Shown here piece after piece: positions 24,453 to 50,071 of a stretch of DNA of 64,000 nucleotides (its first letter is position 1; each line of letters begins with the position of its first letter). A program made the translations under genes and the position numbers. The stretch lies in the NCBI RefSeq assembly GCF_015694525.1, contig NZ_JADQDM010000018.1, positions 1-64,000 of the forward strand, written 5' to 3'. Under the pieces are notes generated by a model. The model was not told the origin of the DNA and searched no databases. It saw only the letters and a program-made list of their open reading frames with translations. Origin of the DNA: Hymenobacter ruricola (lineage in GTDB: Bacteria > Bacteroidota > Bacteroidia > Cytophagales > Hymenobacteraceae).

Positions 24453-24806
24453 TTAGTCGCGCAATGCTTCAGCGTAGTCATGCATCATGAATATGAGAGC
24501 AAGTGCTGCCGCTGCTAAGAAAAACAAGACGCTGAATCCCGCCAGGATGCCGTCGCCTGTCCGAGCATGAGCGCTTCGAAGCGCCTTATACAAAGCCCAT
24601 AGATTGAGTGCTAATCCAACGACATAAACTAAAGCAGCCAACGCTCCTTGGTGGCGTGTATGGAGGGGCAGCCAGCTGTTTGAAGCAGTAAGGGCAGTTG
24701 CAATCACAATTACTAGTTGCCAGACCAAGCTCCCCAGAATGGTTCCAGCAAAACCTTTCAAAAACAGCCCGCGCACCTTAGCTGGAGCGGTTTCCGGCTT
24801 CTCCAT
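24453..24806 (-). CDS. Small multi-pass membrane protein (117 aa), unknown function
   Basis: From ATG 24806 the product has a short cytosolic start (MEKPETAPAKVRGLFLKG), then three hydrophobic segments (about residues 18-40, 52-73 and 82-108) and an acidic end. No family is recognised. The frame extends to 24947, but that part is antisense to the dehydrogenase 3' end and is Arg/Pro-rich. Codon use is less GC-rich than in neighbours. It starts 5 nt after the stop of the aldehyde dehydrogenase gene, so it is probably translated from the same transcript. Confidence 0.62.
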   Translation of the reverse strand: MEKPETAPAKVRGLFLKGFAGTILGSLVWQLVIVIATALTASNSWLPLHTRHQGALAALVYVVGLALNLWALYKALRSAHARTGDGILAGFSVLFFLAAAALALIFMMHDYAEALRD

Positions 24807-24811
24807 GATGC

Positions 24812-26254
24812 CTACAGCTTCACGCACACGTTCTGGGCCTCGGTGAAAAACCGCAGCGCTTCCAGGCCGCCTTCGCGGCCCACGCCGGAGTTTTTCATGC
24901 CGCCGAAAGGCGTGCGCAGGTCGCGGTGCAGCCAAGTATTCACCCACACGATGCCCGAGTGCAGCTGGTGGCTCACGCGGTGGGCGCGTTGCAGGTCGCG
25001 CGTCCAGAGGGTGGCCGAGAGGCCGTAATCGGTGCTGTTGGCCCAGGCCAGGGCTTCCTCTTCGGTGTCGAAGGGCGTGAGGGTGACGACAGGGCCGAAG
25101 ATTTCTTCCTGGTTGGTGCGGCAGTCGAAGGGCAGGTTTTCAAACACCGTGGGCTCCAGGAAGTAGCCGTCGGCACAGCGGCCGGGCACGGTGGCGCGGT
25201 GGCCGCCGGCCAGCAGCACGCCGCCTTCCTCGTGGGCCAGCCGGATGTAGTCCAGCACTTTGTTCAGGTGCGCTTCGCTCACGAGGGCGCCTTGCTTGGT
25301 GTCGGCTTCCAGCGGGTCGCCGATTTTCTGCGCCTCCAGCTGCTTCAGAAACTCGGTTTTAAACGCCTCGTAGATGGGCCGCTCGATGAAAATGCGGGAG
25401 CCGCAGAGGCAAATCTGGCCCTGGTTGGCGAAGCTGCTGCGGACGCTGGTGGCCACGGCGGCGGCCAGGTCGCAGTCGGCGAAGATGAGGTTCGGGTTTT
25501 TGCCGCCCAGCTCCAAGCTGAGCTTTTTGAACATTGGCGCGGCGGTGCGGGCCAGGTGCCGCCCGGTGGCGGTGCCCCCCGTGAAGCTGATGGCCTTGAT
25601 GCCCGGATGCTCCACGATGGCCTGCCCGCAGTTCGGCCCGTTGCCGTGCACGATGTTGAGCACGCCGGCCGGCAAGCCCGCTTCCATGCACAGCTCGCTC
25701 AGGAAAAAGGCGGTGGCCGGCGTGATTTCCGAGGGCTTGGCCACTACGCAGCAGCCCACGGCCAGGGCCGGCGCTATTTTCCAGGTGAAGAGGTAGAGTG
25801 GCAGGTTCCAGGGCGAGATGCAGCCCACCACGCCCACGGGGTGGCGCACGGTGTAGTTCACGGCCACGCCTTCCTGCACGTGGGCCTCGGTGGCAAAGTG
25901 CTGGGCGGCCGTGCCAAAGAAGTGGAAGTTGCTGGCCGCGCGCGGGATGTCCATCACGCGGGCCAGGGCCAGGGGCTTGCCATTGTCCTGGCTTTCGGCG
26001 CGGGCCAGACGCTCCAGGTTGGCGTCGATGAGGTCGGCAACTTTGACCAGCAGGCGGCCGCGCTCCTCGGCCGGCAAGGCGCGCCAGGCGGGCAGGGCGG
26101 CTTCGGCGGCGGCCACGGCGGCGGCCACGTCTTCGGGGCCGGAATCCGGAATCTGGCCGTACACCTGCCCGGTGGCGGGCTCGATGTTGTCGAGAAAACG
26201 GCCGGCCCGGGGCGGCACCAGCTGGCCATTAACGTAATTGAGCAGGCGGAGCAT
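24812..26254 (-). CDS. Aldehyde dehydrogenase, 2-aminomuconate-semialdehyde dehydrogenase-like (ALDH8A1 type)
   Basis: The NAD-dependent enzyme likely oxidises 2-aminomuconic semialdehyde to 2-aminomuconate in kynurenine catabolism. The 480 residues have the ALDH core: Asn150 in ISPWNLPLYL, Glu248 in SLELGGKNPNLIF and Cys282 in NQGQICLCGSRIF. FGGMKNSGVGREGG lies near the C-terminus. ALARVMDIPRAASNF, YTVRHPVGVVG and RSSFANQGQICLC are closer to the ALDH8A1/2-hydroxymuconic semialdehyde group than to general ALDHs. The kynurenine genes at 44.6-52.8 kb support this. It lies 10 nt downstream of a GT-C gene, so the transcript mixes two functions. The start is ATG 26254. Confidence 0.88.
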   Translation of the reverse strand: MLRLLNYVNGQLVPPRAGRFLDNIEPATGQVYGQIPDSGPEDVAAAVAAAEAALPAWRALPAEERGRLLVKVADLIDANLERLARAESQDNGKPLALARVMDIPRAASNFHFFGTAAQHFATEAHVQEGVAVNYTVRHPVGVVGCISPWNLPLYLFTWKIAPALAVGCCVVAKPSEITPATAFFLSELCMEAGLPAGVLNIVHGNGPNCGQAIVEHPGIKAISFTGGTATGRHLARTAAPMFKKLSLELGGKNPNLIFADCDLAAAVATSVRSSFANQGQICLCGSRIFIERPIYEAFKTEFLKQLEAQKIGDPLEADTKQGALVSEAHLNKVLDYIRLAHEEGGVLLAGGHRATVPGRCADGYFLEPTVFENLPFDCRTNQEEIFGPVVTLTPFDTEEEALAWANSTDYGLSATLWTRDLQRAHRVSHQLHSGIVWVNTWLHRDLRTPFGGMKNSGVGREGGLEALRFFTEAQNVCVKL

Positions 26255-26264
26255 GGCGGTTGGT

Positions 26265-27608
26265 TTAATCGTTGAGCCGGCGCTCCGGCAGGTCAGTCGG
26301 GGCCAGCGCGAGGGGTAGGGCAACGGGGTTCCGGCTAAAGTTTTGCCGAATGAGCAGCCATTCCTGCCGCCACTGGGTGAGGCGGTAAAGCTTTACGAAG
26401 CCCAGCACCATGGCCACCGCAAACAAGCCGGCTACGAAGAGCGGGTCGAACACCAGCACCGAGTACTTGCGCAGTTTCAGAAACTGGAGCACGCTTTCCA
26501 GATTGAGAACATAAGCTACCGACGTCAGCACGTAGGGCAGGTAGTCACGCTTCAAAAAGGCGTAGGCGGCTAAGAACAGCATGGCGGCATGCCAGTACCG
26601 TTCGTGCATCTGGGTGTTGAAGAACGCAAAGCAGAGGGGAATCAGCCCGCAGCTGAGCAGGACAATGGAGAAGTCATCCGGGTTAGACTCGCTGGCGGCC
26701 GGCGCAACGGGCGGGCGACGCAGCTTGCGAAGCGACAGCACCAGCAACGGAAACAGGGCGAGCGCCGATGCCAAAAAAAACAGCAGCAAGCCCCAGGTGC
26801 GGTACATAAGCCCGGCGTATAGGCCGGTATCGGCCACGCCCACGGGGTCCGGGTCGGGGGCGAGGGCGTACCAAAAATTGAACGCATTCATGGAGAGCAC
26901 CGGATATGTGTTGGCCGCGCCCAGATTGAATTTGATAATCTGGGGCAGGTAATTTTCGTCGCTCCACCAAATGAAGGGCGCCAGGATGAGCGTGGCCAAC
27001 ACGGCGCTGGCCCCGACGGCCAGCCCCAGTCGTTGGGGCCGCTGCCACCACAGCGGCGCCCACAGCAGCAGCAGGGGCGGCATGAAAATGATGGCCTGGG
27101 TTTTGGCCGACAACGCCAGCACGAAAAACAAAGCACTGGCCACGGCGCGCTGCCGCACGGCCAGCACCACGGCCCCGAACACAAAGAAGGTGTAAATGGC
27201 ATCGACTTGCGCCCACACCAGGGTGTTGTAGAGGTAGCCCAAGTTCAGCAGCAGCAGCAGGACCAGCCCAAACCGACGCTCGCGCTCGCGCACCAGCGAA
27301 GCCGCCCAGAACGCCCCCGCAAAATCAAACACCAGCGTGTAGGCCTTCAGCCAGTGACTGTAGTAAATGAGTTTTTCCACGTCGCCCATCAGCCAGCCAT
27401 TGAACCACAGGATGTAATGGTAGAACGGATTGTAGTTGTTACCGGGCGACTGGTACACGTTGCCCAGCCCGTGGTAGAAAATGTCTTTAGACCAAGCCAC
27501 CCAAAAGCTCATGTCGCTTTCGTGCGCAGCGTGGGGCACCAGCAGCAGCAGCAGCGTGAAGAGCAGAAACGTGTAGGTGAGTTGCCGACGTAGCGAGAGG
27601 GTGCCCAT
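26265..27608 (-). CDS. GT-C-type membrane glycosyltransferase (447 aa)
   Basis: The product is a polytopic membrane protein with about ten hydrophobic segments. Acidic residues lie in the first extracytoplasmic loop (HESDMSFWVAWSKD), and a later loop has NTQMHERYWHAA. The HERY-type motif after an aromatic-rich loop is typical of GT-C enzymes that use polyprenyl-phosphate sugars on the periplasmic side. No closer family can be assigned by eye. ATG 27608 is used because codons upstream are Pro/Ser-rich. It follows the GT2 gene by 64 nt and precedes the dehydrogenase by 10 nt on the same strand. A polyprenyl-phosphate sugar made by that GT2 is a plausible donor. Confidence 0.82.
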   Translation of the reverse strand: MGTLSLRRQLTYTFLLFTLLLLLVPHAAHESDMSFWVAWSKDIFYHGLGNVYQSPGNNYNPFYHYILWFNGWLMGDVEKLIYYSHWLKAYTLVFDFAGAFWAASLVRERERRFGLVLLLLLNLGYLYNTLVWAQVDAIYTFFVFGAVVLAVRQRAVASALFFVLALSAKTQAIIFMPPLLLLWAPLWWQRPQRLGLAVGASAVLATLILAPFIWWSDENYLPQIIKFNLGAANTYPVLSMNAFNFWYALAPDPDPVGVADTGLYAGLMYRTWGLLLFFLASALALFPLLVLSLRKLRRPPVAPAASESNPDDFSIVLLSCGLIPLCFAFFNTQMHERYWHAAMLFLAAYAFLKRDYLPYVLTSVAYVLNLESVLQFLKLRKYSVLVFDPLFVAGLFAVAMVLGFVKLYRLTQWRQEWLLIRQNFSRNPVALPLALAPTDLPERRLND

Positions 27609-27672
27609 GCGTGAAGTGAAAAGCGAGCCGAGGGGTGGCGTGCAGCCGGCGGGCGCGCAGGGAAATGAAAAG

Positions 27673-28629
27673 CTAGAAGGGTTCTGGGCCGGGCGCGGGC
27701 GCCGGGAGGTCCGATTCGGCGATGATGTAAAGCGGGCGCTGGCGCACGTTGGCACTGAGGCGGGCCACGTACTCACCAATGACCCCCAACGCGATGAGTT
27801 GCACCCCGCCCAAGAACAGGATGCTCATCATCAGCGAGGCCCAGCCCGGCTCGTAGTCGTGCCACACCAAGCGAGAATACAGCGTGTAGAGCATCAGCAA
27901 AAAGGCCACGCCCGACACGGTGAAGCCCATGAGCGTGGCGGCCTTGAGCGGCGCGTCCGAAAAGCTCGTGATGCCGTCGAGGGCGAAGCTGAGCATTTTG
28001 CGGTAGGTGTAGCCGGTTTGGCCGCCAGCCCGCTCGGCCCGGTCGTACTCCAAGAACGTTTGGCGAAAGCCCACCCAGGCTATCTGCCCGCGCAGAAACT
28101 TGTGCTGCTCGGGCATCTGGCGCAGGGTGCGCACCACCCGCCGCGAAATAATGCGAAAATCGCCGGTATCCACTGGAATCGATACGTGGGTGATGCGGGC
28201 CAGCAAGCGATAAAACACTTTGGCAGTCAGCTTTTTCGCGTAGCTTTCACCCTGCCGCGAGCGGCGCTTGGCGTACACCACGTCGTATCCTTGCCCCAGT
28301 TTGGCGTAAAGGTCCGTGATGAGTTCGGGCGGGTCCTGCAGGTCGGCGTCGATGATGACCACGGCTCCGCCCTGCGAGTGGTCGAGCCCGGCTGTGACCG
28401 CAATCTGGTGGCCAAAATTGCGGCTGAAGTCCAAGTAGTGCACTCGCAGGTCGCGGGCGGCCAGCGCCTTCAGCATCGGCAGGGACCGGTCGCGCGAGCC
28501 ATCGTTGACGAAAATCAGCTCAAACCCATTGGCCAAAACCATAGGCTCCAGCACGCTGAGCAGGCGCCGGTACAACTCGTCAATGTTGGTTTCCTCGTTG
28601 TAGATGGGAATGATGACGGACAAGTCCAC
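27673..28629 (-). CDS. GT2 polyprenyl-phosphate glycosyltransferase with C-terminal TM segments (GtrB/ArnC-like)
   Basis: The 318-residue protein opens with the GT-A core LSVIIPIYNEETNIDEL, then FVNDGSRDRS, NFGHQIAVTAGLDHSQG and the metal-binding VIIDADLQDPPELI. After GDFRIISRRV and KFLRGQIAWVG it has two C-terminal membrane segments (about residues 230-255 and 268-290). This layout is that of GtrB/ArnC-type enzymes that transfer a sugar from a nucleotide sugar to undecaprenyl phosphate. It sits upstream of a GT-C gene that could use the lipid-linked sugar, and 37 nt downstream of a methyltransferase gene. The sugar is not predictable. Confidence 0.92.
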   Translation of the reverse strand: MDLSVIIPIYNEETNIDELYRRLLSVLEPMVLANGFELIFVNDGSRDRSLPMLKALAARDLRVHYLDFSRNFGHQIAVTAGLDHSQGGAVVIIDADLQDPPELITDLYAKLGQGYDVVYAKRRSRQGESYAKKLTAKVFYRLLARITHVSIPVDTGDFRIISRRVVRTLRQMPEQHKFLRGQIAWVGFRQTFLEYDRAERAGGQTGYTYRKMLSFALDGITSFSDAPLKAATLMGFTVSGVAFLLMLYTLYSRLVWHDYEPGWASLMMSILFLGGVQLIALGVIGEYVARLSANVRQRPLYIIAESDLPAPAPGPEPF

Positions 28630-28666
28630 GTGGGCTATAAAAAACTAAAAGGTGAAATTTTAAAAC

Positions 28667-29425
28667 TCAGGCTGGTTTTTGGGCCAGGGCAAACACGCTC
28701 ACGCCCAGCGGCAGGTTGAAGAGGCGCAGCAAGCGGTTTTCGATTTTCATCCACCACAACAGCAGGCTGTTAGCCGGTCCCACGAGGTGGCGCAGGTCAC
28801 CGGTGGAGCGCGGGTTTATTCCCTTCGAAACCGGTCCCGACGTCAACCGACGCCCGAGCCGCAGCGTTGCCGCCGGAAAATAGAGGGCTGCGTTCCAGAA
28901 CGAACTGCGCTGGATGTGCAGGCTGGCCCGTTGCAGGGCGTCCACCAAGCCTTGGCGGGAATAGCGGCGGAAATGGTGGTTCATCACGTCGTGCTCGCTC
29001 CAGAGGTGGGCATGGGCCGGCACAAACACCAGGAGCCGCCCGCCGGGCTTCAGCACACGGGCCCACTCGCGCAAGGTGCCGGTTTCGTCCTCGATGTGTT
29101 CGAGCACGTCGGACGCAACAACCAAATCAAAGTGCCGGTCGGCAAATTCAAGGGCGGCGCCGTCCATCACCGCGGCGTTGGCCACGCCGCGGGCGCGGGC
29201 CAGTTCAATGGCCGGCTCGCTCACGTCGATGCCCGTCACGTCGGTGTAGCCGGCGGCACGCAGGCGCTGCATCAGGGGGCCGCCCGAGCAGCCGATTTCC
29301 AGAATGGCGGCCGTGCGGGGCAGCTGCAAGCCGGCGATGAGGTCGTACACCGCGTCGCGGCGGCTGGCAAACCACCAATGTTCTTCTTCGAGTTGGTGGT
29401 ATTTGGCTTCGTAAGTCAGGTCCAT
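28667..29425 (-). CDS. SAM-dependent methyltransferase (class I, 252 aa)
   Basis: The protein carries an N-terminal helix with EEEHWWFASRRDAV, then motif I ILEIGCSGGPLMQRL, DVTGIDVSEPAIELAR and FDLVVASDVLEHIEDE. VLKPGGRLLVFVPAHAHLWS follows. This pattern is common among methyltransferases in glycan clusters. The last 80 residues include hydrophobic, aromatic-rich segments that may associate with the membrane. The ATG at 29425 is 6 nt after a perfect -7 box, so codons upstream of it are excluded. It heads an apparent unit of five minus-strand genes that ends at 24453. The substrate could be a lipid carrier or sugar; this is inference. Confidence 0.87.
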   Translation of the reverse strand: MDLTYEAKYHQLEEEHWWFASRRDAVYDLIAGLQLPRTAAILEIGCSGGPLMQRLRAAGYTDVTGIDVSEPAIELARARGVANAAVMDGAALEFADRHFDLVVASDVLEHIEDETGTLREWARVLKPGGRLLVFVPAHAHLWSEHDVMNHHFRRYSRQGLVDALQRASLHIQRSSFWNAALYFPAATLRLGRRLTSGPVSKGINPRSTGDLRHLVGPANSLLLWWMKIENRLLRLFNLPLGVSVFALAQKPA

Positions 29426-29431
29426 GCCGAG

Positions 29432-29570: not shown

Positions 29571-31880
29571 TCAAGGCCTCAGCGAATACGTGTTTTTGAC
29601 CAACCGCCGCCGGGCGCCCGTGCCGATGTAGTAATACACGTCGGTATTAACAGGGCGAATGAGCAAGTCGTCGGCCAGCAGGTCGTGGTTTTGATACAGC
29701 ACTTCGATGCGTTGCACGCCGGGCTGCACCCGAAACGGCACCACGATGCGCACCCAGTCGCCCATCACCTCGGTGGCCTTGCGGCTGTCCACCACCGATT
29801 CCGCGGTGCCGCCGTCGGCGTAATGGGAAACGACCCGCATGTTGCCGAAGCCGTAGTCGGTTTTGCCATTTATCCACACCGAGGCTTCGTAGCGGCCCGT
29901 GTCGGCCGGGGCCGGCACGGGCCCGTCGTAGAGGGTTGAAAATTTATCCTGTGGCTCATAGAAGGCCCCGGCGCCCAAGCGGCCGCGCCGGTCCGCGGCC
30001 TGAGCGAAGTCCTGCACCAGCACGCCGGCGGCCGTGGTTGTGAAGAGCCCGCCCGGCCGCGGCTTGAGGGTCGGCAACAGCGAGTCGGCCTTTGCCTGTT
30101 CCCGGGGCAAGTCGGTGGCGGCCAGGGCGGCCAGCGGCAATTCGTAGAGGGAGGCTTCGGGGGTTTGCACCAGCAGGTGGGCCAGGCCCACGAGCCGCTG
30201 CTCGGCGTCGGACAGGATATCGGGCGTCACAAGCAGCAGCAGGGGCTTGTTGTTGGGGAAATGCGCCAGCAGTTCCCTGGGCACCAAGGGGCTGCTAAAC
30301 AACTGGATGTGCTGCATGGCCTCCCCCACCGAAGAGCGGGGAATGTGGTTGGCCAACAGCGGCAACCCGCTGATGGCGGAGGCTTTATAGGCCTGAAAAA
30401 TGGAATTGCCGCTCCCGGCCTGGTCAAATTTGTCGGTGCCCATGTTGTAGTACGGCACGGGCAAAATGGCTTGGAATTCGGAAAAGCCGCGGTTTTTCCA
30501 CGTCAGTTGCGAAACCGGGCTGGAGCTGGGGTCCAGAAAGTCGTTGGCGCCGGTGTTGGCCATCACCCTTGTGGCTTCGGTGGACACTTGCAGCCACGCC
30601 TCGGCGCCCCAGAACAACAGCACCGGCAGCCCCACCCACGCCAGCGCGCCCAGCCGCCGCCGGCGCAGGTACCGCCACAGCCGGTAAAGGCAATACGCCG
30701 TGTAGGTAGTGGCCACGTAATAAAAAGGCCAGGCGAAGCGCCCCAGCGACCGAAACTGTTTCACTTGCCCGGCGTGCTCGGTGAGCCACTCGAAGCCGTG
30801 CCACTTAAAGGGCACGCCAAAAGAGAAAATCAGCAGCAGGGAAGCAGCCCACAGCCCGGTGCGCAAATGCAGCGGCGCCGCCGGCCGGCCCAGGCGGCGC
30901 CACCGGCGGCGCGCCAGCACCGCCGCCGTGCCCAAAAGGCAAGAGGCCGCCAAGGTGACCGTGCTGACCAGGCCGACGTAAGAAAAGCCTTCCGAGCTGG
31001 CGGGCTCGTCGCCGGGCCACTGCGCCTGCCACCAGTCGTAGACGGGGCCCATCACCGGGGTGAACACCGTGCCGGGCGTGGCCACGAACACCAGCAGGCC
31101 GTAGGGGTTGGGCGGCCGGTCGGTCACGTGGTCGGTGGCCCAGAGGTAGCCGCGGAACAGGAGCAGCGGCAGCGCCGCCGTCAGCGCCAGGCGCAGCAGC
31201 CACCGCCGCAGGCGGGGCTGCTGCCAGGCCAGCACCAGCACGTGCCCCAGCAAAAACGCGCAGCCCACCGCTAAGAAATACGGCATCACGGCCCCAATCA
31301 GCAGAATGCTGACGGTGAACACAATGTACCAGCGCCACCGGCCCGGCGCCTCCTGCATCCGGATGATGCAGTACCACAGCCACGGCACAAACCACGCGTA
31401 GCTAAGCATCAGGTGCCCGTCGAGGCGCAGTACCTGGGGCGACATGAACCCGATAATCAGGGCCAGCAGCCCGGCGTAGAGCACGGGCAGGCGGGTGCGC
31501 CGCAGCACCGCATATAGCACCACCGGCGTAATCACCAGGGAGCTCAGGCCCAGCAGGTTGAGAATGGCCACCGAGTACCGCCCGGCTGGCACACCGTGCC
31601 GGTGCAAGAAGCCCATGATGGTGGCAAGCAGCGGCTGCAGGTTGGGGTAATTGAAATGCTCGCCGTAAGGGTAGTTCATGCCCGTGAAGCGCAGGCCCAT
31701 GTCATGCATCACGTAGAAGGCCGTGACGTAATAGCTCTGCAGCATGTCGCCGCTCGGGTTGAAATAAAAGTCGTTGGGATTAGCCAGTACGGGGCCGAAC
31801 AGCACCGCCGTCAGCGCCAGGGCCGCCAGGGCCACGCCGCCCATGCCCAGCCAGTGCAGCTTGCGGAAAGATGAACTCAT
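29571..31880 (-). CDS. Large GT-C-like membrane protein with extracytoplasmic C-terminal domain (769 aa)
   Basis: From ATG 31880 the product starts with a TM helix and an acidic loop (NPNDFYFNPSGDMLQSYY). About eleven more TM segments follow, up to residue 440. A long extracytoplasmic region of about 320 residues comes next. The last 120 residues (from about GAFYEPQDKFSTLYDG to LIRPVNTDVYY) look like a jelly-roll/CBM-like beta domain similar in layout to the lipoproteins at 34951 and 35471. A polyprenyl-sugar-dependent transferase or YfhO-like protein are both possible. It is transcribed alone, 145 nt upstream of the methyltransferase unit, and divergent from the GT2 at 32225. Confidence 0.78.
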   Translation of the reverse strand: MSSSFRKLHWLGMGGVALAALALTAVLFGPVLANPNDFYFNPSGDMLQSYYVTAFYVMHDMGLRFTGMNYPYGEHFNYPNLQPLLATIMGFLHRHGVPAGRYSVAILNLLGLSSLVITPVVLYAVLRRTRLPVLYAGLLALIIGFMSPQVLRLDGHLMLSYAWFVPWLWYCIIRMQEAPGRWRWYIVFTVSILLIGAVMPYFLAVGCAFLLGHVLVLAWQQPRLRRWLLRLALTAALPLLLFRGYLWATDHVTDRPPNPYGLLVFVATPGTVFTPVMGPVYDWWQAQWPGDEPASSEGFSYVGLVSTVTLAASCLLGTAAVLARRRWRRLGRPAAPLHLRTGLWAASLLLIFSFGVPFKWHGFEWLTEHAGQVKQFRSLGRFAWPFYYVATTYTAYCLYRLWRYLRRRRLGALAWVGLPVLLFWGAEAWLQVSTEATRVMANTGANDFLDPSSSPVSQLTWKNRGFSEFQAILPVPYYNMGTDKFDQAGSGNSIFQAYKASAISGLPLLANHIPRSSVGEAMQHIQLFSSPLVPRELLAHFPNNKPLLLLVTPDILSDAEQRLVGLAHLLVQTPEASLYELPLAALAATDLPREQAKADSLLPTLKPRPGGLFTTTAAGVLVQDFAQAADRRGRLGAGAFYEPQDKFSTLYDGPVPAPADTGRYEASVWINGKTDYGFGNMRVVSHYADGGTAESVVDSRKATEVMGDWVRIVVPFRVQPGVQRIEVLYQNHDLLADDLLIRPVNTDVYYYIGTGARRRLVKNTYSLRP

Positions 31881-32224: not shown

Positions 32225-33025
32225 ATGGCCGTTCCTCTCCTTTCCCTTATCGTCCCAGCTTATAACGAAGCCACGCGGTTGGGCAATACCATTGAGCAAG
32301 CGCTGGCTTATTTGCAGGCGCAGCCTTACCGCAGCGAAGTCATTGTCGTCAACGACGGGTCGACCGACAACACCACCCAGGTGGCCGAGGCCGTTTTTGC
32401 GGCGCAGGCGGGCCGCATTGCCACGCGGCTGCTGAGCTACCAGCCCAACCGGGGCAAAGGCTACGCCGTGCGCCAGGGCCTGCTAGCCGCCCAGGGCCAG
32501 GTGGCCTTGTTTTCAGACGCCGACTTATCGACGCCGATTGACGAGCTGCCGCAGTTGCTCAACCCCATTCTGGCGGGCCAGTTCGACATCGTTTTCGGTT
32601 CGCGGGCGCTCGACCCTAGCCTCGTTGGCACGCACCAGCCGTGGTTGCGGGAGCAAAGCGGCCGGTTTTTCAACCTGGTGATGCGGCTGGCGACCGGGCT
32701 GCCCTACGTCGACACGCAGTGTGGCTTCAAGGCGTTTCGGCTCGACGTGTGCCGCCCCATCGCGGAGGGGGCCATCCTGGACCGGTTTGGCTTCGATGTG
32801 GAACTCCTGTACCTGGCCTACAAGGCCGGCCTGCGCCTGCACGAGCAACCCGTGCGGTGGAACGACGCCGCGGGCAGCAAGGTGGGCGTGCTCGGTGGCC
32901 TCGATGGCTTCCGGGAATTGCACCAGCTCCGCCGCAGGGCGCGGCGCGGCCGCTACGACGACACCCTGCGGCGCACCCGGGAAGCCATGGCCAAGCCCGC
33001 GCCGCTGCTGCAACCGGAGCCGTAG
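32225..33025 (+). CDS. GT2 dolichyl-phosphate glucosyltransferase-like enzyme (ALG5 type)
   Basis: The 266-residue protein has the GT-A motifs LSLIVPAYNEATRLGNTI, VIVVNDGSTDNT, NRGKGYAVRQGLLAAQG and FSDADLSTPIDELPQLL. FDIVFGSRALDPSL, DTQCGFKAFR and ILDRFGFDVELLYLA follow. This ordered set is characteristic of dolichyl-phosphate beta-glucosyltransferase (ALG5) homologues. They load glucose or a similar sugar onto a polyprenyl phosphate at the cytosolic face. It has no C-terminal TM segments. Start ATG 32225 is preferred over 32105, which lies upstream of the promoter box. The gene is followed after 68 nt by a GT-C protein that could be the user. Confidence 0.9.
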   Translation: MAVPLLSLIVPAYNEATRLGNTIEQALAYLQAQPYRSEVIVVNDGSTDNTTQVAEAVFAAQAGRIATRLLSYQPNRGKGYAVRQGLLAAQGQVALFSDADLSTPIDELPQLLNPILAGQFDIVFGSRALDPSLVGTHQPWLREQSGRFFNLVMRLATGLPYVDTQCGFKAFRLDVCRPIAEGAILDRFGFDVELLYLAYKAGLRLHEQPVRWNDAAGSKVGVLGGLDGFRELHQLRRRARRGRYDDTLRRTREAMAKPAPLLQPEP

Positions 33026-38819: not shown

Positions 38820-38931
38820 CAGTCAGGCGAGCCCTCGTTCGCGCGCTTTCGGCCGCAATTCCAGCAAAACGCGGTTATTTGCGGCTTAAAGGTGGGCTTA
38901 TTGCCCGGCTTTCCTCGTGCTTACTATTTCC

Positions 38932-41881: not shown

Positions 41882-42673
41882 TCAAAGCGAGCCCGTGCGG
41901 CCGCCGTCCACGGGCACGCTGGTGCCGTTGATGTAGCCGGCGGCCGGCGAGGCCAGGAAGGCCACGGCCGCCGCCACTTCTTCGGCCTGCCCGAAGCGGC
42001 GCGCCGGAATGGTTTTCAGCATGTCGGCCTCAATGGCATCGGCCGGCTGGCCGGTCTGGGCCACTTTCTTCTCGATGAGGGAATGGTGGCGCTGAGTGAG
42101 CGTGGCGCCGGGCAGCACGTTGTTCACCGTGATGCCGAGCGGGCCCAGCTCGTTGGCCAGGGTTTTGGCCCAGCTGGCCACGGCCCCGCGAATGGTGTTG
42201 CTCACGCCCAGCCCGGCCAGCGGAATTTTCACTGAGGTGCTGATGATGTTGATGATGCGCCCGAACCCGGCCGCCCGCATGCCCGGCACCAGGGCCTGCG
42301 CCAGCAAGTGGTTGCAGATAACGTGCTGGTTGAACGCCACCCGTAAGGCATCAACCGGCGCCTCCAGCAGCGGGCCGCCAGCGGGGCCGCCCGTGTTGTT
42401 CACGAGAATGTGGAAGCCGGCGGGGTGCTGCGCCAGGTAGGCCTGCACCACGTCGGCCACGTGGCTGGGGTCGTCGAAGTCGGCCACCAGGTAGTCGTGC
42501 GCCTGGCCGGTAGGGGCGGGCAGGGCGGCGGCCACTTCGCGCAGCCGGTCTTCGTTGCGGGCCAGCAGCGTGATGGCGCAGCCGCTTTCGGCCAACGCTT
42601 CGGCCACGGCCCGGCCAATGCCCTGGGTGCTGCCGCCCACCAGGGCGCGGCGGTTTTCTAAGGAGAGGTTCAT
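41882..42673 (-). CDS. Atypical SDR oxidoreductase lacking the catalytic Tyr/Lys
   Basis: The 263-residue protein has an SDR Rossmann core: nucleotide motif GGSTQGIG (residues 13-20), ILVNNTGGP, IINIISTS and the C-terminal GYINGTSVPVDGG. Where classical SDRs have YxxxK, the sequence reads GVSNTIRGAV, so Tyr appears replaced by Ser and Lys by Arg. This matches the BKR-like SDR-like subgroup, in which the catalytic tetrad is imperfect. Neighbours include the haaO/ACMSD/kynU genes across a GT-C gene, so a role in that pathway is possible but unproven. ATG 42673 is the start. It is probably co-transcribed with the GT-C gene 28 nt upstream. Confidence 0.85.
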   Translation of the reverse strand: MNLSLENRRALVGGSTQGIGRAVAEALAESGCAITLLARNEDRLREVAAALPAPTGQAHDYLVADFDDPSHVADVVQAYLAQHPAGFHILVNNTGGPAGGPLLEAPVDALRVAFNQHVICNHLLAQALVPGMRAAGFGRIINIISTSVKIPLAGLGVSNTIRGAVASWAKTLANELGPLGITVNNVLPGATLTQRHHSLIEKKVAQTGQPADAIEADMLKTIPARRFGQAEEVAAAVAFLASPAAGYINGTSVPVDGGRTGSL

Positions 42674-42701
42674 GTTTTGCAAGTCGGGTTAAGTCAAATA
42701 A

Positions 42702-44459
42702 TTAGCGGGCGGGCGGCGTGAGCAGCACGTAGCCGTCCACCAGCTGCTCGCGGTAGCCGTAGGGCCGCAGCAGCTCGCGCAGAAACAGGTGGGCTGGTTG
42801 CTCGCGGAAAGCGGGGGTGATGACGAAGGCGGCCGGGTCGTACTGGCGCAGGAAGGCCTGCACCTGCGGGGCGGTGGGCGGCGCGGGGGCCACGGTGTCG
42901 GGCTTGGTTTGGCGGAAGAGCACGGCGCCCAGCACGGGGTCGTTTTGCAGCCCGGCAAACACCTCCGGCGGCACCCGCGCCGTATAACCGACGGGCACTT
43001 TTTTCTCGTGCACCGTTTGATAAAACAGGTACTCTCGCTCGAATTTCCCGACTTCGCGGTGGCCGCTGGAAAGCCCCAGCGGCACCGGAATCATGGTCTT
43101 GCCGGGCAATTTGGCCACTTCGTGGAACACCCGCGGCACGGCCTCGCGCGAGGTGCGCTCGTAGGGTTTCGGCCAATACTCGAACAGCACCAGGGCAGCC
43201 AGCAGCAGGCTGAGCGCGGTGCGCGACGCGGCGGGCAGGCGCGCCTGCCAGGCCGCCTCCAGGGCGCTGAAGGTGAGGATGGGTAGCAACAACCCAACCA
43301 TCATAATCCAGCGGGTGGGGCAGCGGACGTTGTTGAAAAACGGGACGAAGTGCAGCAGGGCCGTGGGCAGCTGCAGGCGGTCGTGGCCGTGCACGCGCAG
43401 GGCGGGCAGGGTCAGCATCACGAAAAAAAGCAGCACCCAGGCCAGTGGCCGGCCCTCGGGCGCCTGCGCCACGGCCGAGGTGGGCCGGCGGTGGGCCTTG
43501 CGCAAGGCCCACAAGCCCAGCGCCAGCAGCGGCAGCGCGTAACCCATGAACAAGGTGTTCTCCAGCGAGCCGGGCGTGTTGAACACCTGCGGGTTGTGGT
43601 AGAGCCGGGCGGCCCAGTCCCAGTACACGAAGCGGCTGGTGGGCGGCGGCATGATGAACGCGACCACGTCGCCGCCCCACCAGAAGCCGCCGTTGTCTTC
43701 CAGCCCCGAGCGGCGCAGCAGCCGAATGACGACGTGGCTCACCGCCAAAATGCCGCCCAGCCAGGCCCAGGTGCGCCACTCGCGCCACCGGATGCGGCCC
43801 AGCCCCAGCCAGAACCACGCCGCGTAGGCCAGCGAAAAATACAGCAGCCCAAACAGTACGTAATAGTCGCTCAGCAGCGTGACCACGCCCAGCGCCACGC
43901 ACCCCGCCACGGCTTTCCAGCTGCGGATGGCCGGCAGAAATTTCTTTTCTTCAAACCGAAACGCGTTCAGAAAAGCCAGCACGTAGAACGGCACCGTGGC
44001 CGTGAGCACCAGGTTGTAATGCTCGGGCAGGCGCTGCAGCTTGTAGGGCGAATAGGCGAAAACGAAGCCGGCCAATAAACACAGCAGCGGGCTGTGCACC
44101 CAGCGCCGGGCCAGCAGGTAGGCCCCGGCCGCCGACAAGGAGTAGCTCAGCAGCAGGCCGATGTTGAGGGCCAGCAGGTCGTTGTTCACCAGCAGGCTGA
44201 TGAGGCCGATGATGGGCGTGTAAGTGTGCAGTATCAGCCAGGAACCCAGCGGGTAGAACAGCCAGTCGGTGTGGAACACGGGCTGGCCGGTGTGCACCGC
44301 CATGCGGAAATGCCAGGTGTTCCAGGGGAACACGTAGGTATCGTGCCCCGGCACCACCAGAAACGACGAGGTGAAATGCGCCGCCAGTGGCCAGGTAAGA
44401 ACGGCGAACAGCAAGCCGTAGAAGGCCACCAGCAAGCCCAGGCGCAGCCAGTATTTCAT
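42702..44459 (-). CDS. GT-C-like membrane protein (585 aa)
   Basis: From ATG 44459 (MKYWLRLGLLVAFYG) the protein has about eleven TM segments. A first loop has HDTYVFPWNTWHFRMAVHTG, where the Asp/His may be active-site residues, and a soluble C-terminal part has about 130 residues. Family assignment is limited to GT-C-like membrane protein; YfhO-type proteins share this layout. The frame stays open upstream to 45707, but that stretch is antisense to two well-supported genes and has no TM segment. It is divergent from haaO, with a promoter box 62 nt upstream, and is followed after 28 nt by the atypical SDR. Confidence 0.78.
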   Translation of the reverse strand: MKYWLRLGLLVAFYGLLFAVLTWPLAAHFTSSFLVVPGHDTYVFPWNTWHFRMAVHTGQPVFHTDWLFYPLGSWLILHTYTPIIGLISLLVNNDLLALNIGLLLSYSLSAAGAYLLARRWVHSPLLCLLAGFVFAYSPYKLQRLPEHYNLVLTATVPFYVLAFLNAFRFEEKKFLPAIRSWKAVAGCVALGVVTLLSDYYVLFGLLYFSLAYAAWFWLGLGRIRWREWRTWAWLGGILAVSHVVIRLLRRSGLEDNGGFWWGGDVVAFIMPPPTSRFVYWDWAARLYHNPQVFNTPGSLENTLFMGYALPLLALGLWALRKAHRRPTSAVAQAPEGRPLAWVLLFFVMLTLPALRVHGHDRLQLPTALLHFVPFFNNVRCPTRWIMMVGLLLPILTFSALEAAWQARLPAASRTALSLLLAALVLFEYWPKPYERTSREAVPRVFHEVAKLPGKTMIPVPLGLSSGHREVGKFEREYLFYQTVHEKKVPVGYTARVPPEVFAGLQNDPVLGAVLFRQTKPDTVAPAPPTAPQVQAFLRQYDPAAFVITPAFREQPAHLFLRELLRPYGYREQLVDGYVLLTPPAR

Positions 44460-44528: not shown

Positions 44529-44624
44529 GCGCATGCGTGCACCCCGGCGCGAGGCGCCTGCCCGAAAGCGCAAAACGCCGCCCCGGCCGTAGCTTAGCAG
44601 TCCCAACCACCCACCCCAGTCGCC

Positions 44625-45155
44625 ATGATAACCCGCCCCTTCAACTTCCAAAAGTGGATTGACGAACACCGCCATTTGCTGAAACCCCCGGTGGGCAACC
44701 AGCAGGTGTTCAAAGACAATAAAGACTTCATCGTGATGGTGGTGGGCGGCCCCAACGCCCGCAAAGACTACCACGTGGACGCCGGCGAGGAGCTGTTCTG
44801 GCAGGTGGAGGGCACGATGACCGTCAAAATCATCGAGGACGGCCAGCCCGTCGACATCACCATCGGGCCGGGCGAGATGTTCCTGCTGCCGCCGAATGTG
44901 CCACACTCGCCGCGCCGCCCGGCTGGCACCGTGGGCCTGGTGCTGGAGCGCTACCGCGAGGGCGGCGAGCTCGACGGCTTCCAGTGGTACTGCGAAAACT
45001 GCGGCCACAAGCTGTATGAGGAGTTTGCCGAAATCACCGACATCGTGGCCCAGCTGCCGCCCATCATGAACGCCTTCTGGCAGGACGACGCCAAGCGCAC
45101 CTGCACCAACTGCGGCACCTACATGGAGGCCCCCGCGCCGGTGACCCCCGCCTAG
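44625..45155 (+). CDS. haaO: 3-hydroxyanthranilate 3,4-dioxygenase
   Basis: The enzyme opens the ring of 3-hydroxyanthranilate to 2-amino-3-carboxymuconate semialdehyde. The 176 residues form a cupin with Fe ligands His50, Glu56 and His94, in the contexts KDYHVDAGEELFWQ and LPPNVPHSPRRPAGT. A second rubredoxin-like metal site is formed by Cys123, Cys126, Cys160 and Cys163, as in bacterial enzymes. EELFWQVEGTMTVKIIEDG is diagnostic. Length is standard. It leads directly into the decarboxylase gene after 9 nt, and the two surely form one operon. Confidence 0.96.
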   Translation: MITRPFNFQKWIDEHRHLLKPPVGNQQVFKDNKDFIVMVVGGPNARKDYHVDAGEELFWQVEGTMTVKIIEDGQPVDITIGPGEMFLLPPNVPHSPRRPAGTVGLVLERYREGGELDGFQWYCENCGHKLYEEFAEITDIVAQLPPIMNAFWQDDAKRTCTNCGTYMEAPAPVTPA

Positions 45156-45164
45156 CCCCGCGCC

Positions 45165-46205
45165 GTGCTTTCCATCGACATCCACACCCACATTCTGCCC
45201 GAGCGCTGGCCCGATTTGAAGGAGCGCTACGGCTACGGGGGCTTCATCCGGCTGGACCACCACAAGCCCTGCTGCGCCCGCATGATGCAGGACGACAAGT
45301 TCTTCCGCGAGGTGCAGGACAACTGCTGGGACCCCGAAGTGCGCCTGCGCGAGTACGACCAGTTTGGCGTGCAGGTGCAGGTGCTCAGCACCGTGCCCGT
45401 CATGTTCAGCTACTGGGCCCAGCCGCTGGATTGCCTGGATTTGAGCCAATTGCTCAACGACCACATTGCCGACGTGGTGCACCGCTACCCCAGCCGCTTC
45501 GTGGGCCTGGGCACCCTGCCGATGCAAGCGCCCAAGCTGGCCATCCGGGAGCTGGAGCGCTGCCTGAAAATTGGGCTGGCCGGCGTGCAGATTGGCTCGC
45601 ACGTGAACGACTGGAACCTCGACGCGCCTGAGCTTTTCGAAGTTTTTGCTGCCGCCGAGGAGCTGGGCGCCTGCGTATTTGTGCATCCCTGGGACATGAT
45701 GGCCCAAGGCAAAATGCCCAAGTACTGGCTGCCCTGGCTGGTGGGCATGCCCGCCGAAAGCACGCTGGCGCTATGCTCGCTGATATTTGGCGGGGTGCTG
45801 GAGCGACTGCCGCGCCTGCGCGTGGCGGTGGCCCACGGCGGGGGCTCGTTTGCCAGCACCATCGGGCGCATCGAGCACGGCTGGCAGGTGCGGCCCGACC
45901 TCTGCGCCATCGACAACCCCCACAACCCGCGCAACTACCTGGGCAAGTTCTGGGTCGACTCGCTGGTGCACGACCCATTGATGCTTGACTACCTGGTGAA
46001 GACCCTGGGCGCCGACAAAATCACGCTCGGCACCGACTACCCCTTCCCGCTGGGCGAGCTGGAGCCCGGGCAGCTCATCAAGTCCATGCCGTTTTCAAAC
46101 GACATTAAGGAGCGGATGCTCGGCCAGAACGCCCTGGATTGGCTGGGCCTGGCGCGCGCGCAGTTCGGCCCCCAGCTGCTGGGCACGGCCACCGGCTTGC
46201 GCTAA
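45165..46205 (+). CDS. Amidohydrolase: 2-amino-3-carboxymuconate-6-semialdehyde decarboxylase (ACMSD)
   Basis: The Zn-dependent decarboxylase removes CO2 from the product of HaaO, diverting flux from quinolinate to 2-aminomuconate semialdehyde. The 346 residues open [18 protein letters not shown], giving the metal ligands His7 and His9. His174 of [14 protein letters not shown], a later His (AVAHGGGSF) and Asp of [11 protein letters not shown] complete the amidohydrolase site. [17 protein letters not shown] is typical of ACMSD. The start is GTG 45165, 9 nt after the haaO stop. The kynureninase gene follows 144 nt later with its own -7 box. Confidence 0.94.
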
Positions 46206-46336
46206 ACAGCTCCGGCCGCCCCCGTTATTTACATTAGCGCCTGGCACCTCGGGTACAGGCCCGATGTAAGGTACACCGGGGCTTGGGGGCGGTGGATGCC
46301 ATAACCTTTTGTTAGCATCGGCAGCGGCTTTGGGCC

Positions 46337-46344
46337 GACCTTTG
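46337..46344 (+). promoter_or_regulatory. -7-like box (GACCTTTG) directly before kynU
   Basis: GACCTTTG matches TAnnTTTG at seven of eight positions and ends 5 nt before the kynU ATG at 46350. TTTTG at 46307-46311 is a possible -33 element, but the 25-nt spacing is long. Like rsmI, the arrangement implies a nearly leaderless transcript. Confidence 0.42.
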
Positions 46345-46349
46345 CGCGC

Positions 46350-47624
46350 ATGACTGCCCCGCATTCCCTTGCCCCCGCCGCCGAGCTCGACGCGGCCGAT
46401 GCTTTAGCTTCTTTCCGCCAGGAATTTCACTTGCCGCTCGGGCCCGACGGCCGGCCCTGCGCCTACTTCTGCGGCAACTCGCTGGGCCTGCAGCCCAAAG
46501 CCGCCCGCGCCGCCGCCGAGCAGGAGTTCGACGCCTGGGAGCGGCTGGGCGTGGAAGGCCATTTCCACGGCGTGTCGCCCTGGATGCACTACCACGAAAC
46601 CCTCACCGACGCCACCGCGCGGCTGGTGGGCGCCCAGCCCATTGAGGTGGTGGTGATGAACAACCTGACGGTGAACCTGCACTTGCTGCTGGTGTCGTTT
46701 TACCGCCCCACGGCCACGCGCTACAGGATTTTGATGGAAGGCGGCGCCTTTCCGTCGGACCAGTACGCCATCGAAAGCCAGGCCCGCCTGCACGGCCTCG
46801 ACCCGGCCGCGGCCATTGTGGAGCTGGTGCCGCGCCCCGGCGAGCACACCCTGCGCACCGAAGACATTGAGGCCACCATTGCCGGGCTGGGCGAGTCGCT
46901 GGCCACCGTCCTCATCGGCGGCGTGAACTACTACACGGGCCAGGCTTTCGACATGGCGGCCATTGCCCGCGCCGGCCACGCCGTGGGCGCCACCGTGGGT
47001 TTCGACCTGGCCCACGCCGCCGGCAACCTCGACCTGCGCCTGCACGACTGGGACGTGGACTTTGCCTGCTGGTGCTCCTACAAATACCTCAACTCCGGGC
47101 CCGGCGGCACATCGGGCGTGTTCGTGCACGAGCGGTTTGCCAATCGGCCCGATTTGGTGCGCCTGGCCGGCTGGTGGGGCCACGACCCGTCCGACCGGTT
47201 TCAAATGAAAAAAGGCTTCCGGCCCATGGCCGGCGCGGCCGGCTGGCAGCTCTCGAATGCCCAGATTTTCCCGATGGCCATTCACCGGGCCAGCCTGGAG
47301 CTGGTGGACCGTGCCGGCGGCATGCCGGCCCTGCGCCGCAAAAGCGAGCAGCTCACGGCCCGGCTCGAAAGCCAGATTCGCGCTCTGAACCTGCCCGCCG
47401 ACAAGCTCGAAATCATCACCCCCGCCGACCCGGCCCAGCGCGGCTGCCAGCTCTCAGTGCTGGTGCACGAGCGCGGGCGCGAACTGTTCGATTACCTGGC
47501 CAGCGTGGGCGTCATTGCCGATTGGCGCGAGCCCAATGTTATTCGGATGGCACCCGTGCCGCTCTACAATTCGTTTGAGGACGTGGACCGGGCGGGCGAA
47601 GCGCTGGCGCGCTTCTTCAGTTAA
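46350..47624 (+). CDS. kynU: Kynureninase
   Basis: The PLP enzyme cleaves 3-hydroxykynurenine (or kynurenine) to 3-hydroxyanthranilate (or anthranilate) and alanine. The 424 residues have YFCGNSLGLQPK near the start, then HETLTDATARLVGA, LMEGGAFPSDQYAIESQ, FDLAHAAGNL (PLP Asp219 and His222) and the Schiff-base Lys245 in CWCSYKYLNSGPGG. GWWGHDPSDRFQM follows. Length and motifs are typical. The stop codon lies in an inverted repeat (47619-47735). It fits between KMO (51406) and HaaO (44625) in the pathway. Confidence 0.97.
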   Translation: MTAPHSLAPAAELDAADALASFRQEFHLPLGPDGRPCAYFCGNSLGLQPKAARAAAEQEFDAWERLGVEGHFHGVSPWMHYHETLTDATARLVGAQPIEVVVMNNLTVNLHLLLVSFYRPTATRYRILMEGGAFPSDQYAIESQARLHGLDPAAAIVELVPRPGEHTLRTEDIEATIAGLGESLATVLIGGVNYYTGQAFDMAAIARAGHAVGATVGFDLAHAAGNLDLRLHDWDVDFACWCSYKYLNSGPGGTSGVFVHERFANRPDLVRLAGWWGHDPSDRFQMKKGFRPMAGAAGWQLSNAQIFPMAIHRASLELVDRAGGMPALRRKSEQLTARLESQIRALNLPADKLEIITPADPAQRGCQLSVLVHERGRELFDYLASVGVIADWREPNVIRMAPVPLYNSFEDVDRAGEALARFFS

Positions 47625-47735: not shown

Positions 47736-47747
47736 CCTAACTAGAAG

Positions 47748-48422: not shown

Positions 48423-48445
48423 AACCCGCCGCGGCCAGCGGCGCG

Positions 48446-50071
48446 CTACCACTTGTAGAGCACCGTCAGGGCTTTGATGCCGTAGGGTTTCACCGCGTAC
48501 ACTTCGTTGCCCAGGCTGTCGGGGTACGGCTCGGGGTGCACGCGGTAGGCGCCCAAAAAGTACTGCGCTTTGCCGGGGGCATTTTCACGGAAGCGGGCCC
48601 GGTCTTCGGGCTTCATGATGGCGAGGTTGTTGTCGATGAGGCCGGGGTTTGTGGTCCGCACGTTGATTTGCGGCGAGGGGTCGTGTCGCGCAATCCACTC
48701 CAGGCCCTGCCGGTACGTGAGGGCCCAGTAGTCGCGCTCGAACTGCGTTTCCACCTCGGCCGGCGACAGGAAGGAAAAATACACCTGCTCCTGCGGGTGC
48801 GCCTGCACCATCCGGCCGATGGTGTACAGCATCTCGCCGCCCGCCAGCACGGCCGCGCCCAGCGCCACCGGCCGGGCCCAGCGGTAGTGCCGGCCAAGCT
48901 GCCAAACCGAGCCAGCGCCCCGCACGGCCAGCAAGAGCAGCGCCGGGTACACGAAATACAGGTGCCGCCAGCCGTCGTAGATAACCGAGTGCAGCACAAT
49001 CACCATGGCAATGGGCAGGATGAACCAGCCCAGAAAGAGGATGTCCAGCCGCCCCGCGAAGGTGCGCAGATGCGCCAGGTGGCGGCGCACCAACGCGGCC
49101 AGCGCCCCCAGCACCCCCAGCACAAAAGCCGCCGTGTAGGCCACCGGCGTGGTGATGACAATCCAGACCGGGGCGTAGTGCCAGGGCAACTCCAGCGTCG
49201 ACACGCGGCGGCCCATGTAGAGCACCTCCGCAATGAAGCGAAACTTCTTCATGTTGTCGAAGGCGGTGAGAAAGTTTCGAACCGGGGCCTCCCACAGGTA
49301 GGGCCACCCCAGGTAGATGCCCACCACCGCGGCCCCCAGAAACACCGGCACCACCTGGCCCAGGCGCCGCCCGCGCTGCGGCTCGCGCGGGCCAAACAGG
49401 GCTTCCAGCGCCAGCATGCCCAGGGTCATGGCCACCAGCAGAATGCCGAGAATGCGCACGTCGACCGCCGCCGCGGTGGCCAGGCCGTGCACCACGGCGC
49501 GCCGCCAGGTAGGCCGCTCCAACAAGCGCACCAGCGTGTAGATTCCCAGGGTGAAAAACGCCAGAAACACAATGTCTTTGCCGTTGTAAAATGACTCGGC
49601 GAAAAAGCGCGGCGACAGCACCAGCAGCGTGCTGGCCAGCAGGCCCACGCGCGTGCTCCGGAAGCGGACGCGGGCCGTTTTGTACAGGGCCCAGACGCCC
49701 ATCATAAACACCACGAAAACCGCGAAGTGACGCGTCAGGAAATACGTGCGCGAGTCTTCGATGCCGAACACCACTTTGTCCAGCAGGGCCAGCGGCATCT
49801 CGAAAAACACGCCGTGGTCGTTTTCCACGTAGCCGTGGATGTCGGGCGTGTTCGGGAAGAAGTTGTTGTTCGGCGCAACTAGGCCCACTGCGTACCTGGC
49901 GCTCACCATGCCGTTGGTGCGGTCCGCCTGCTCGTCCCACGACACGCCGTAGTCCTTGTAAAAGCACAGCCCCAGCAGCAGCAGCAGCACAAAATACCCG
50001 CGCACGTAGAAAGTGCGCGGGTCGGCGGCAAACGCAGCGCGCAAGGCGTCTCGCAGGCGGTAGAAAAGCAT
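48446..50071 (-). CDS. GT-C/GT39-like membrane glycosyltransferase, paralog of 33094 (541 aa)
   Basis: About ten TM segments. Shared with the paralog are DYGVSWDEQADRTNG (acidic first loop), SPRFFAESFYNGKDIVFLAFF, VDVRILGILL, FRFIAEVLYMG, LELPWHYAPVWIVITTPVAY and LHSVIYDGWRHLYFVYPAL. The soluble tail ends in RVHPEPYPDSLGNEVYAV. The first-loop Asp-Glu pair fits the catalytic site of polyprenyl-sugar-dependent transferases. Start ATG 50071 lies 43 nt after a perfect -7 box. It separates kynU/membrane protein from AlkB and KMO and is not in an obvious operon. Confidence 0.84.
   Translation of the reverse strand: MLFYRLRDALRAAFAADPRTFYVRGYFVLLLLLGLCFYKDYGVSWDEQADRTNGMVSARYAVGLVAPNNNFFPNTPDIHGYVENDHGVFFEMPLALLDKVVFGIEDSRTYFLTRHFAVFVVFMMGVWALYKTARVRFRSTRVGLLASTLLVLSPRFFAESFYNGKDIVFLAFFTLGIYTLVRLLERPTWRRAVVHGLATAAAVDVRILGILLVAMTLGMLALEALFGPREPQRGRRLGQVVPVFLGAAVVGIYLGWPYLWEAPVRNFLTAFDNMKKFRFIAEVLYMGRRVSTLELPWHYAPVWIVITTPVAYTAAFVLGVLGALAALVRRHLAHLRTFAGRLDILFLGWFILPIAMVIVLHSVIYDGWRHLYFVYPALLLLAVRGAGSVWQLGRHYRWARPVALGAAVLAGGEMLYTIGRMVQAHPQEQVYFSFLSPAEVETQFERDYWALTYRQGLEWIARHDPSPQINVRTTNPGLIDNNLAIMKPEDRARFRENAPGKAQYFLGAYRVHPEPYPDSLGNEVYAVKPYGIKALTVLYKW

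Follow-up and report, generated by a model that had tools for sequence, protein, structure and literature searches.

Three-component GT-C systems, among them Gtr and the pentofuranose systems with GT136, combine a GT-C glycosyltransferase acting outside the cytoplasm with a polyprenyl-phosphate sugar synthase and give serotype-like variety, as passages of PMC11127046 describe. In mycobacteria, the C-terminal carbohydrate-binding module (CBM) of the arabinosyltransferase EmbC binds the acceptor, according to an excerpt of PMC3044687, and part of the discussion in PMC12802301 proposes a CBM-like supporting role for the lipoproteins LpqZ and FecB alongside AftA and AftB. For the Bacteroidota, the relevant portion of PMC12871550 assigns the outer chains of O-glycans to the LFG locus, which starts with metG and wzx and whose chain is thought to be built in the cytoplasm; in the corresponding section of a review, the O-glycan oligosaccharyltransferase (OTase) and ligase of this phylum count as undiscovered. 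Here we describe positions 24453 to 50071 of a 64,000-nucleotide stretch of Hymenobacter ruricola DNA (hereafter the window; the host genome is ~6 Mb), an interval that holds three GT2 genes, seven polytopic membrane proteins, two lipoproteins, a methyltransferase and a GH16 glycoside hydrolase, together with kynurenine genes. We consider it reasonably likely that this is a species-variable surface-glycosylation island of Hymenobacter, in which sugars would be transferred in the periplasm and the lipoproteins would serve as acceptor-binding modules.

The island resembles the three-component systems in joining GT2 synthase candidates to GT-C proteins that would act outside the cytoplasm and in its serotype-like variety (PMC11127046, in the passages cited), and it differs from them in that no GtrA was found in the genome and no flippase at the locus, in carrying up to eight GT-C-type genes per locus and in its CBM-type lipoproteins. 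Its chemistry is ordinary in general; the notable feature is the repeated pairing of GT-C-type genes with genes for CBM-type lipoproteins. The original prediction for this stretch had proposed an extracytoplasmic glycosylation system with a GT-C module and lipid-sugar synthase candidates, a description that our analysis supports and whose clustering is conserved in the genus; it had overlooked both the domain common to the lipoproteins and one of the GT-C proteins and the turnover of the island from species to species. We found no paper on Hymenobacter glycosyltransferases together with kynurenine and, judged by title, none on this locus among those on Hymenobacter glycosyltransferase or exopolysaccharide gene clusters; none of four CBM terms occurs in PMC12041299.

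The 38917 protein and its lipoprotein relatives

In its predicted model, the product of the gene at 38917 to 40785 (plus strand) is a GT-C glycosyltransferase with a core at residues ~4-449 and a C-terminal CBM-like jelly-roll at residues ~469-617. The model was built from seven aligned rows and has a mean pLDDT of 78 and a pTM of 0.76; its core matches ALG12 with a Z score of 24.0 and a root mean square deviation (rmsd) of 4.0 over 348 aligned residues, followed by AglB (Z 21.4), ArnT (Z 20.2) and Pmt4 (Z 19.4), with aligned lengths of ~340-370 residues. A GT-C membrane fold is thus shown by the model. An aspartate after the first helix is nearly invariant in a 19-row alignment of the family and invariant in the seven-row one, and 9 of 19 relatives match PMT_2 with E values no higher than 1 (4.2e-7 at best), though the copy in the window has no match. 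The modeled jelly-roll is closest to a porphyran-binding CBM (Z 11.8) and to CBM16 (Z 11.1), and a Foldseek search with the protein returned Emb arabinosyltransferases at the top, with a high rmsd over the whole chain, and CBM22 next (E 1.5e-4). On this prediction the architecture, a GT-C core with a C-terminal CBM-like fold, is Emb/Aft-like and recalls the mycobacterial EmbC and AftD enzymes (PMC3044687, in excerpt); the differences are that Hymenobacter belongs to another phylum and that a related domain also exists there as separate lipoproteins.

Two such lipoproteins are encoded in tandem upstream, as had been predicted. The first (34951 to 35499, plus strand) has a CBM_4_9-type domain scoring 32.7 bits against a cut-off of 25.9, and the second (35471 to 36052, plus strand), whose gene overlaps the first by 29 bases, belongs to the same family, with a CBM_4_9 score of 16.3 bits that falls below the cut-off. 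Across an alignment of 24 lipoproteins, made up of the two in the window and 22 of 30 others listed, a lipobox cysteine (C20) and two tryptophans never vary; a loose lipobox pattern is present in 55 of the 60 lipoprotein genes collected from the genus. The lipoprotein profile recognizes residues 471-614 of the 38917 protein with an E value of 1.4e-11, and likewise the C-terminal domain of the long 38917-type proteins, so that one domain occurs both fused and free. The lipoprotein family was detected in 21 of 241 genomes of the order, namely 19 of the 20 same-genus genomes listed and two genomes of other families. None of the nine same-family genomes listed from other genera has it, and the genomes with no match include 200 outside the list. 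The matches in each of the 19 same-genus genomes are confined to a single stretch of at most ~12 kb.

Gene order and turnover across the genus

To compare loci we used the 3-HAO dioxygenase gene (HAAO) of the interval as an anchor; it is carried by 35 of 36 same-genus relatives (G027 is without it), which gives 36 loci with that of the window genome (G000). The stretch read was 40 kb for most loci, 60 kb for G022 and 20-36 kb for G004, G011, G017, G018, G025, G028 and G036, and the locus counts come from six-frame searches with profiles built from an earlier set of open reading frames (ORFs) that had missed genes in several genomes. GT-C-type families were found in 34 of the 36 HAAO loci and lipoproteins in 32. 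Because the clustering recurs in 34 same-genus loci it is not due to chance, and the predicted clustering is conserved in the genus. The two loci without GT-C genes are that of G026, which reads short-chain dehydrogenase (SDR)-HAAO-KYNU-AlkB-KMO, and that of G025, where the contig ends ~3 kb past HAAO. In total, the regions read, five of them around distant KYNU genes, contain 148 GT-C-type genes; these fall into 14 sequence families, several of which have no Pfam name.

We sorted the 60 lipoprotein genes by their position relative to these GT-C-type genes, in counts uncorrected for shared ancestry. For 37, a GT-C gene in the same direction follows directly on the 3' side, no more than 600 bases away; 13 lie directly 3' of such a gene, two are 5' of a GT-C gene with a larger gap, and eight have neither placement. 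A lipoprotein gene is directly upstream of 30 of the 69 genes of families F0, F3, F7 and F9-F12, and of none of the 79 genes of F1, F2, F4-F6, F8 and F15. Since the profiles were derived from the same loci as the counts, we used a held-out set of 12 further same-genus genomes, picked by whole-genome lipoprotein search matches. GT-C families were present in all 12, and HAAO lay in the stretch read in 11, the twelfth being cut by a contig end; for 27 of 29 lipoprotein genes the next annotated neighbor, with no limit on distance, encodes a GT-C-type or other polytopic protein in the same direction, and it lies 3' of the lipoprotein gene in 20 cases and 5' in seven. As with LpqZ and FecB (PMC12802301, in the part cited), a separate lipoprotein would lend a sugar-binding role to a GT-C protein without a CBM; there this is a proposal of the discussion, whereas in Hymenobacter it draws on the shared domain and on the adjacent position of 77 of 89 lipoprotein genes (50 of 60 plus 27 of 29 held-out). 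The gene order and the shared domain are evidence, from a phylum far from the mycobacteria, for the proposal that a GT-C enzyme can have a separate sugar-binding lipoprotein.

When the 148 GT-C-type proteins were divided by C-terminal tail at 110 residues, a cut that we set ourselves, a lipoprotein gene was directly upstream in 24 of 55 with short tails versus 6 of 93 with long tails (Fisher p 1e-7, uncorrected for ancestry). A reading in which the lipoprotein replaces a missing fused CBM is one that we do not claim, the trend being reversed within the 38917 family.

The content of the locus varies greatly between species. There are 34 different GT-C sets among the 36 loci, the empty set counted (two loci share one set and two have none), with a median of four and a maximum of eight GT-C-type genes per HAAO locus. 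The window genome and its nearest relative (G024) share most flanking genes at 80-98% identity, exceptions being Uma2 at 54% and a small membrane protein at 60%. Within the island the values are 48% for both lipoproteins, 60% for the 36072 protein, 68% for 29571, 77% for 27673 and 83% for 42702, the 38917 protein (89%) and the 40957 GT2 (98%) being exceptions, and several GT-C genes occur in just one of the two genomes. We read the low identity of the island and its differing GT-C content as turnover of the kind found in surface-glycan loci. A relative of the 42702 gene in Hymenobacter arizonensis (L144, 5534-7261) is spread over several frames with one stop, which fits turnover or a sequencing fault. 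At the island edge, the Uma2-family gene (23852-24451) is 52-55% identical to its counterparts in the relatives that have it, and its neighboring genes are mostly above 75%.

These comparisons bear on the idea that the general protein O-glycosylation system of Bacteroidota has its periplasmic part in this island, with one GT-C acting as the OTase or ligase and the others extending a species-specific outer glycan. One GT2 of the island is indeed DPM1-like and has relatives across many Bacteroidota, PMT-type GT-C proteins are present, and the published order of metG followed by wzx was not found (metG is on contig C27, where the only PF01943 match is ~138 kb away and below the family cut-off). 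The island is also like the LFG locus in having species-variable glycosyltransferase content between conserved genes in this phylum, and it differs in containing neither metG nor wzx (both points set against the portion of PMC12871550 cited above). Conserved machinery should, however, be phylum-wide, and the lipoproteins hardly occur outside a single genus; no GT-C family is common to all 36 loci, the commonest being found in 19 genomes. We regard this explanation as improbable.

Glycosyltransferase candidates and proposed mechanism

All three GT2 proteins match PF00535, in line with the prediction, and match specific NCBIfam models below their cut-offs. They are a PgfS/ArnC-like polyprenyl-phosphate sugar synthase candidate (27673 to 28629, minus strand), a dolichyl-phosphate hexose transferase-like protein (32225 to 33025, plus strand) and the DPM1/AglJ-like synthase candidate with relatives in many Bacteroidota (40957 to 41682, minus strand). 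Genes of the 27673 and 40957 types each occur in 25 of the 36 HAAO loci. By these matches, the synthase component of a three-component GT-C system appears to be present as three candidates.

The seven polytopic ORFs expected from the prediction were all found, each with 8-10 hydrophobic segments by a simple hydropathy count, and the acidic first loop assigned to them is seen as an acidic residue conserved after the first helix in four families. Besides the 38917 family these are the family of 33094 and 48446, with a conserved D-E (7 rows), that of 42702, where the aspartate is nearly invariant (16 rows, one over-long ORF of 17 left out), and that of 29571, where it is invariant (13 rows, one of 14 left out for the same reason). 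The F6 protein at 48446 to 50071 (minus strand) scores 42.0 bits for PMT_2 (cut-off 26.1) and 37.5 bits for PMT (cut-off 22.7), and the Pfam match above the PMT_2 cut-off supports its candidacy as a PMT-type GT-C; its paralogue at 33094 to 34686 (plus strand; 44% identity), a PMT_2-like candidate with 17.2 bits (E 0.0063), below the same cut-off, is supported indirectly through that relationship. The F1 protein at 42702 to 44459 (minus strand), whose predicted ORF is present with its gene start near 44459, and the F2 protein at 29571 to 31880 (minus strand), which has a long C-terminal tail, belong to families that are mutually homologous by profile (probability 95), with no credible tie to a named family and weak Pfam matches in single members only; an AlphaFold model of the former from five shallow rows reached a pLDDT of 41. 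The F3 protein at 36072 to 37403 (plus strand), encoded immediately after the lipoproteins, and the F15 protein at 26265 to 27608 (minus strand), a family found in 2 of 36 loci, are taken as putative GT-C proteins, as is that at 42702; the window copies of 36072 and 26265 have no Pfam match. None of the seven matched an NCBIfam model, and PDB sequence searches with the profiles of four families returned 1, 4, 4 and 0 chains, none credible (best E 0.15); a structure's absence from the VIA list does not speak against a fold. The predicted proteins are candidates for periplasmic sugar transfer in Bacteroidota.

We picture the following scheme, in which the enzyme activities, acceptor binding, the periplasmic site and the surface location are what we infer. 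Judging from their family, the GT2 enzymes would work on the cytoplasmic side and attach single sugars to polyprenyl phosphate, and a flippase outside the GtrA family would then flip the lipid-sugars. GT-C membrane enzymes, one of them with a predicted fold and the others presumed, would use them to glycosylate an acceptor on the periplasmic side, and CBM-type jelly-rolls, fused to some GT-C proteins or standing alone as lipoproteins beside others, would bind or present the acceptor glycan; this role is suggested by the domain sharing, the gene order and the precedent of EmbC. As GT-C and lipoprotein genes are exchanged, lost or duplicated, each species would come to have a glycan of its own, as in O-antigen loci, and the island probably decorates the cell surface. 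The kynurenine genes would be an old neighbor with no part in the glycan pathway. A bolder version, which we hold only tentatively and think rather doubtful, makes the GT-C proteins two-part machines, in which catalysis falls to the membrane protein and acceptor binding to a lipoprotein module that can be separate from it, fused or split, so that the whole surface glycan would be built sugar by sugar in the periplasm by a combinatorial and species-specific choice of pairs, with no en-bloc flipping.

Several observations weigh against a surface-glycosylation island with lipoproteins as acceptor-binding modules. A GT-C fold is shown by model for one protein (38917) and has support from sequence for two (48446 and, through its paralogue, 33094); for four of seven (26265, 29571, 36072 and 42702) the fold has no independent evidence. 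The locus yielded no flippase, and GtrA (PF04138) was found nowhere in the genome in a search that was positive in 7 of 14 control genomes, PF01943 being the only other flippase family searched and MATE and SMR not being searched genome-wide; donor export is therefore unexplained. The jelly-roll of the 38917 protein also resembles binary-toxin translocase domains, Vip3 and a phage tailspike, the last two at similar Z, so that the fold alone does not establish sugar binding. Shared ancestry could enter the gene-order counts, which are uncorrected for it. Within the 38917 family a lipoprotein gene lies upstream of 5 of 8 long, jelly-roll-bearing members versus 3 of 16 short ones, one of them a fragment, and since the long proteins often also have an upstream lipoprotein, the lipoproteins do not simply substitute for a missing fused module. 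Finally, the 40957 GT2 and the SDR are 98% and 96% identical to those of G024 though inside the island, so turnover is uneven.

Neither Wzx nor Wzy was found among the interval genes scanned, the PF04932 and PF01943 matches of the genome lying on other contigs, and the view that this is not a standard Wzx/Wzy locus is borne out. On contig C15, Wzx-type, Wzy_C and PMT_2 genes at 16-19 kb and 38.9 kb perhaps mark a conventional polysaccharide locus of the same genome. The Wzx-type and Wzy_C genes there, which are 2 kb apart, speak against a further explanation, in which the polytopic proteins of the interval assemble a secreted exopolysaccharide trimmed by GH16 and modify neither protein nor lipopolysaccharide. 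The GH16 gene itself, the CBM-type domains and the adjoining nucleotide-sugar genes would suit that explanation, but no polymerase, co-polymerase or export family appeared among the interval genes scanned, and GH16 is present in just 3 of 36 loci; we judge it quite unlikely. The GH16 protein (37446 to 38819, plus strand; PF00722, E 1.8e-11), with an E-V-D-V-F-E motif that we take to be a GH16 signature, is accessory to the surface-glycosylation island that we favor. A lipoprotein/GT-C/GH16 trio had been anticipated, of which the first two members recur at the frequencies given above and GH16 does not.

Kynurenine genes and other neighbors

Every ORF named in the original prediction was found near the place given for it and the genes are real; missing from its account of the interval were the kynurenine genes, the SDR and an aldehyde dehydrogenase. 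On the plus strand from 44625 to 47624, outside the glycan module, lie genes for the 3-HAO dioxygenase (44625), an amidohydrolase (45165) without an NCBIfam match, which by position we take to be ACMSD-like, and kynureninase (KYNU; 46350). Just outside the interval, a flavin adenine dinucleotide (FAD) monooxygenase (51397 to 52779, plus strand; PF01494) is, again by position, presumably kynurenine monooxygenase-like. The aldehyde dehydrogenase (24812 to 26245, minus strand) resembles 2-hydroxymuconic semialdehyde dehydrogenase (TIGR03216, 570 bits, below the cut-off of 693) and by position is a kynurenine-type flank, outside the glycan module.

In 10 of 28 loci HAAO and KYNU are separated by GT-C genes, always co-directional with the kynurenine genes. 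KYNU is not beside HAAO in eight genomes, being on another contig at an unmeasurable distance in five and 43-58 kb away in three, and in all eight GT-C genes adjoin HAAO. In a tree of the 38917 family the kynurenine-embedded short forms fall in two clades, which would fit an ancient tandem pair with losses afterward. Outside the genus, a genome of another family in the order (G107) has methyltransferase-GT2-F0-F3-F2-GT2-lipoprotein-F4 on contig C1 (L275, 1-11 kb) and HAAO on contig C3, and we therefore treat the glycan module as a unit and the kynurenine genes as neighbors; the other lipoprotein-bearing genome outside the genus (G051) has the lipoprotein without a GT-C gene of these families alongside.

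It could be argued that the kynurenine pathway and the GT-C proteins function together as a unit, which might make a surface coat under tryptophan regulation, say, or a glycan with aromatic decoration. Their co-occurrence in 34 of 36 loci, the co-directional insertions between HAAO and KYNU and the GT-C genes that stay beside HAAO where KYNU is elsewhere would agree with this. Against it, G107 keeps its GT-C/lipoprotein/GT2 cluster and HAAO on separate contigs, no GT-C gene was found with the SDR-HAAO-KYNU-KMO genes of G026, the frequent neighbors also include an AlkB-like gene and a small membrane protein, and co-direction is expected anyway if opposite insertions break the operon. We give such a unit very little credence, and the kynurenine neighborhood of the glycan module is probably incidental. 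An easy misreading is thereby corrected: the region is a glycan island merged with tryptophan catabolism and not one functional cluster.

The remaining genes of the interval are an S-adenosylmethionine-dependent methyltransferase (28667 to 29426, minus strand) and the SDR (41882 to 42682, minus strand), a frequent neighbor. Upstream, from 17449 to 23760 on the minus strand, are RfbA, a TviC-like epimerase, RfbB, GalE, a TviB-like nucleotide-sugar dehydrogenase and a hexapeptide acetyltransferase, with RfbA, RfbB and GalE above their curated cut-offs and the TviB and TviC models below theirs; these nucleotide-sugar genes are a neighboring donor supply and adjoin the island in part of the genus. 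Farther upstream, the ORF at 14900-16585 fuses a response-regulator receiver domain to a thioredoxin-reductase-like domain and has counterparts at the same place in G022 and G024.

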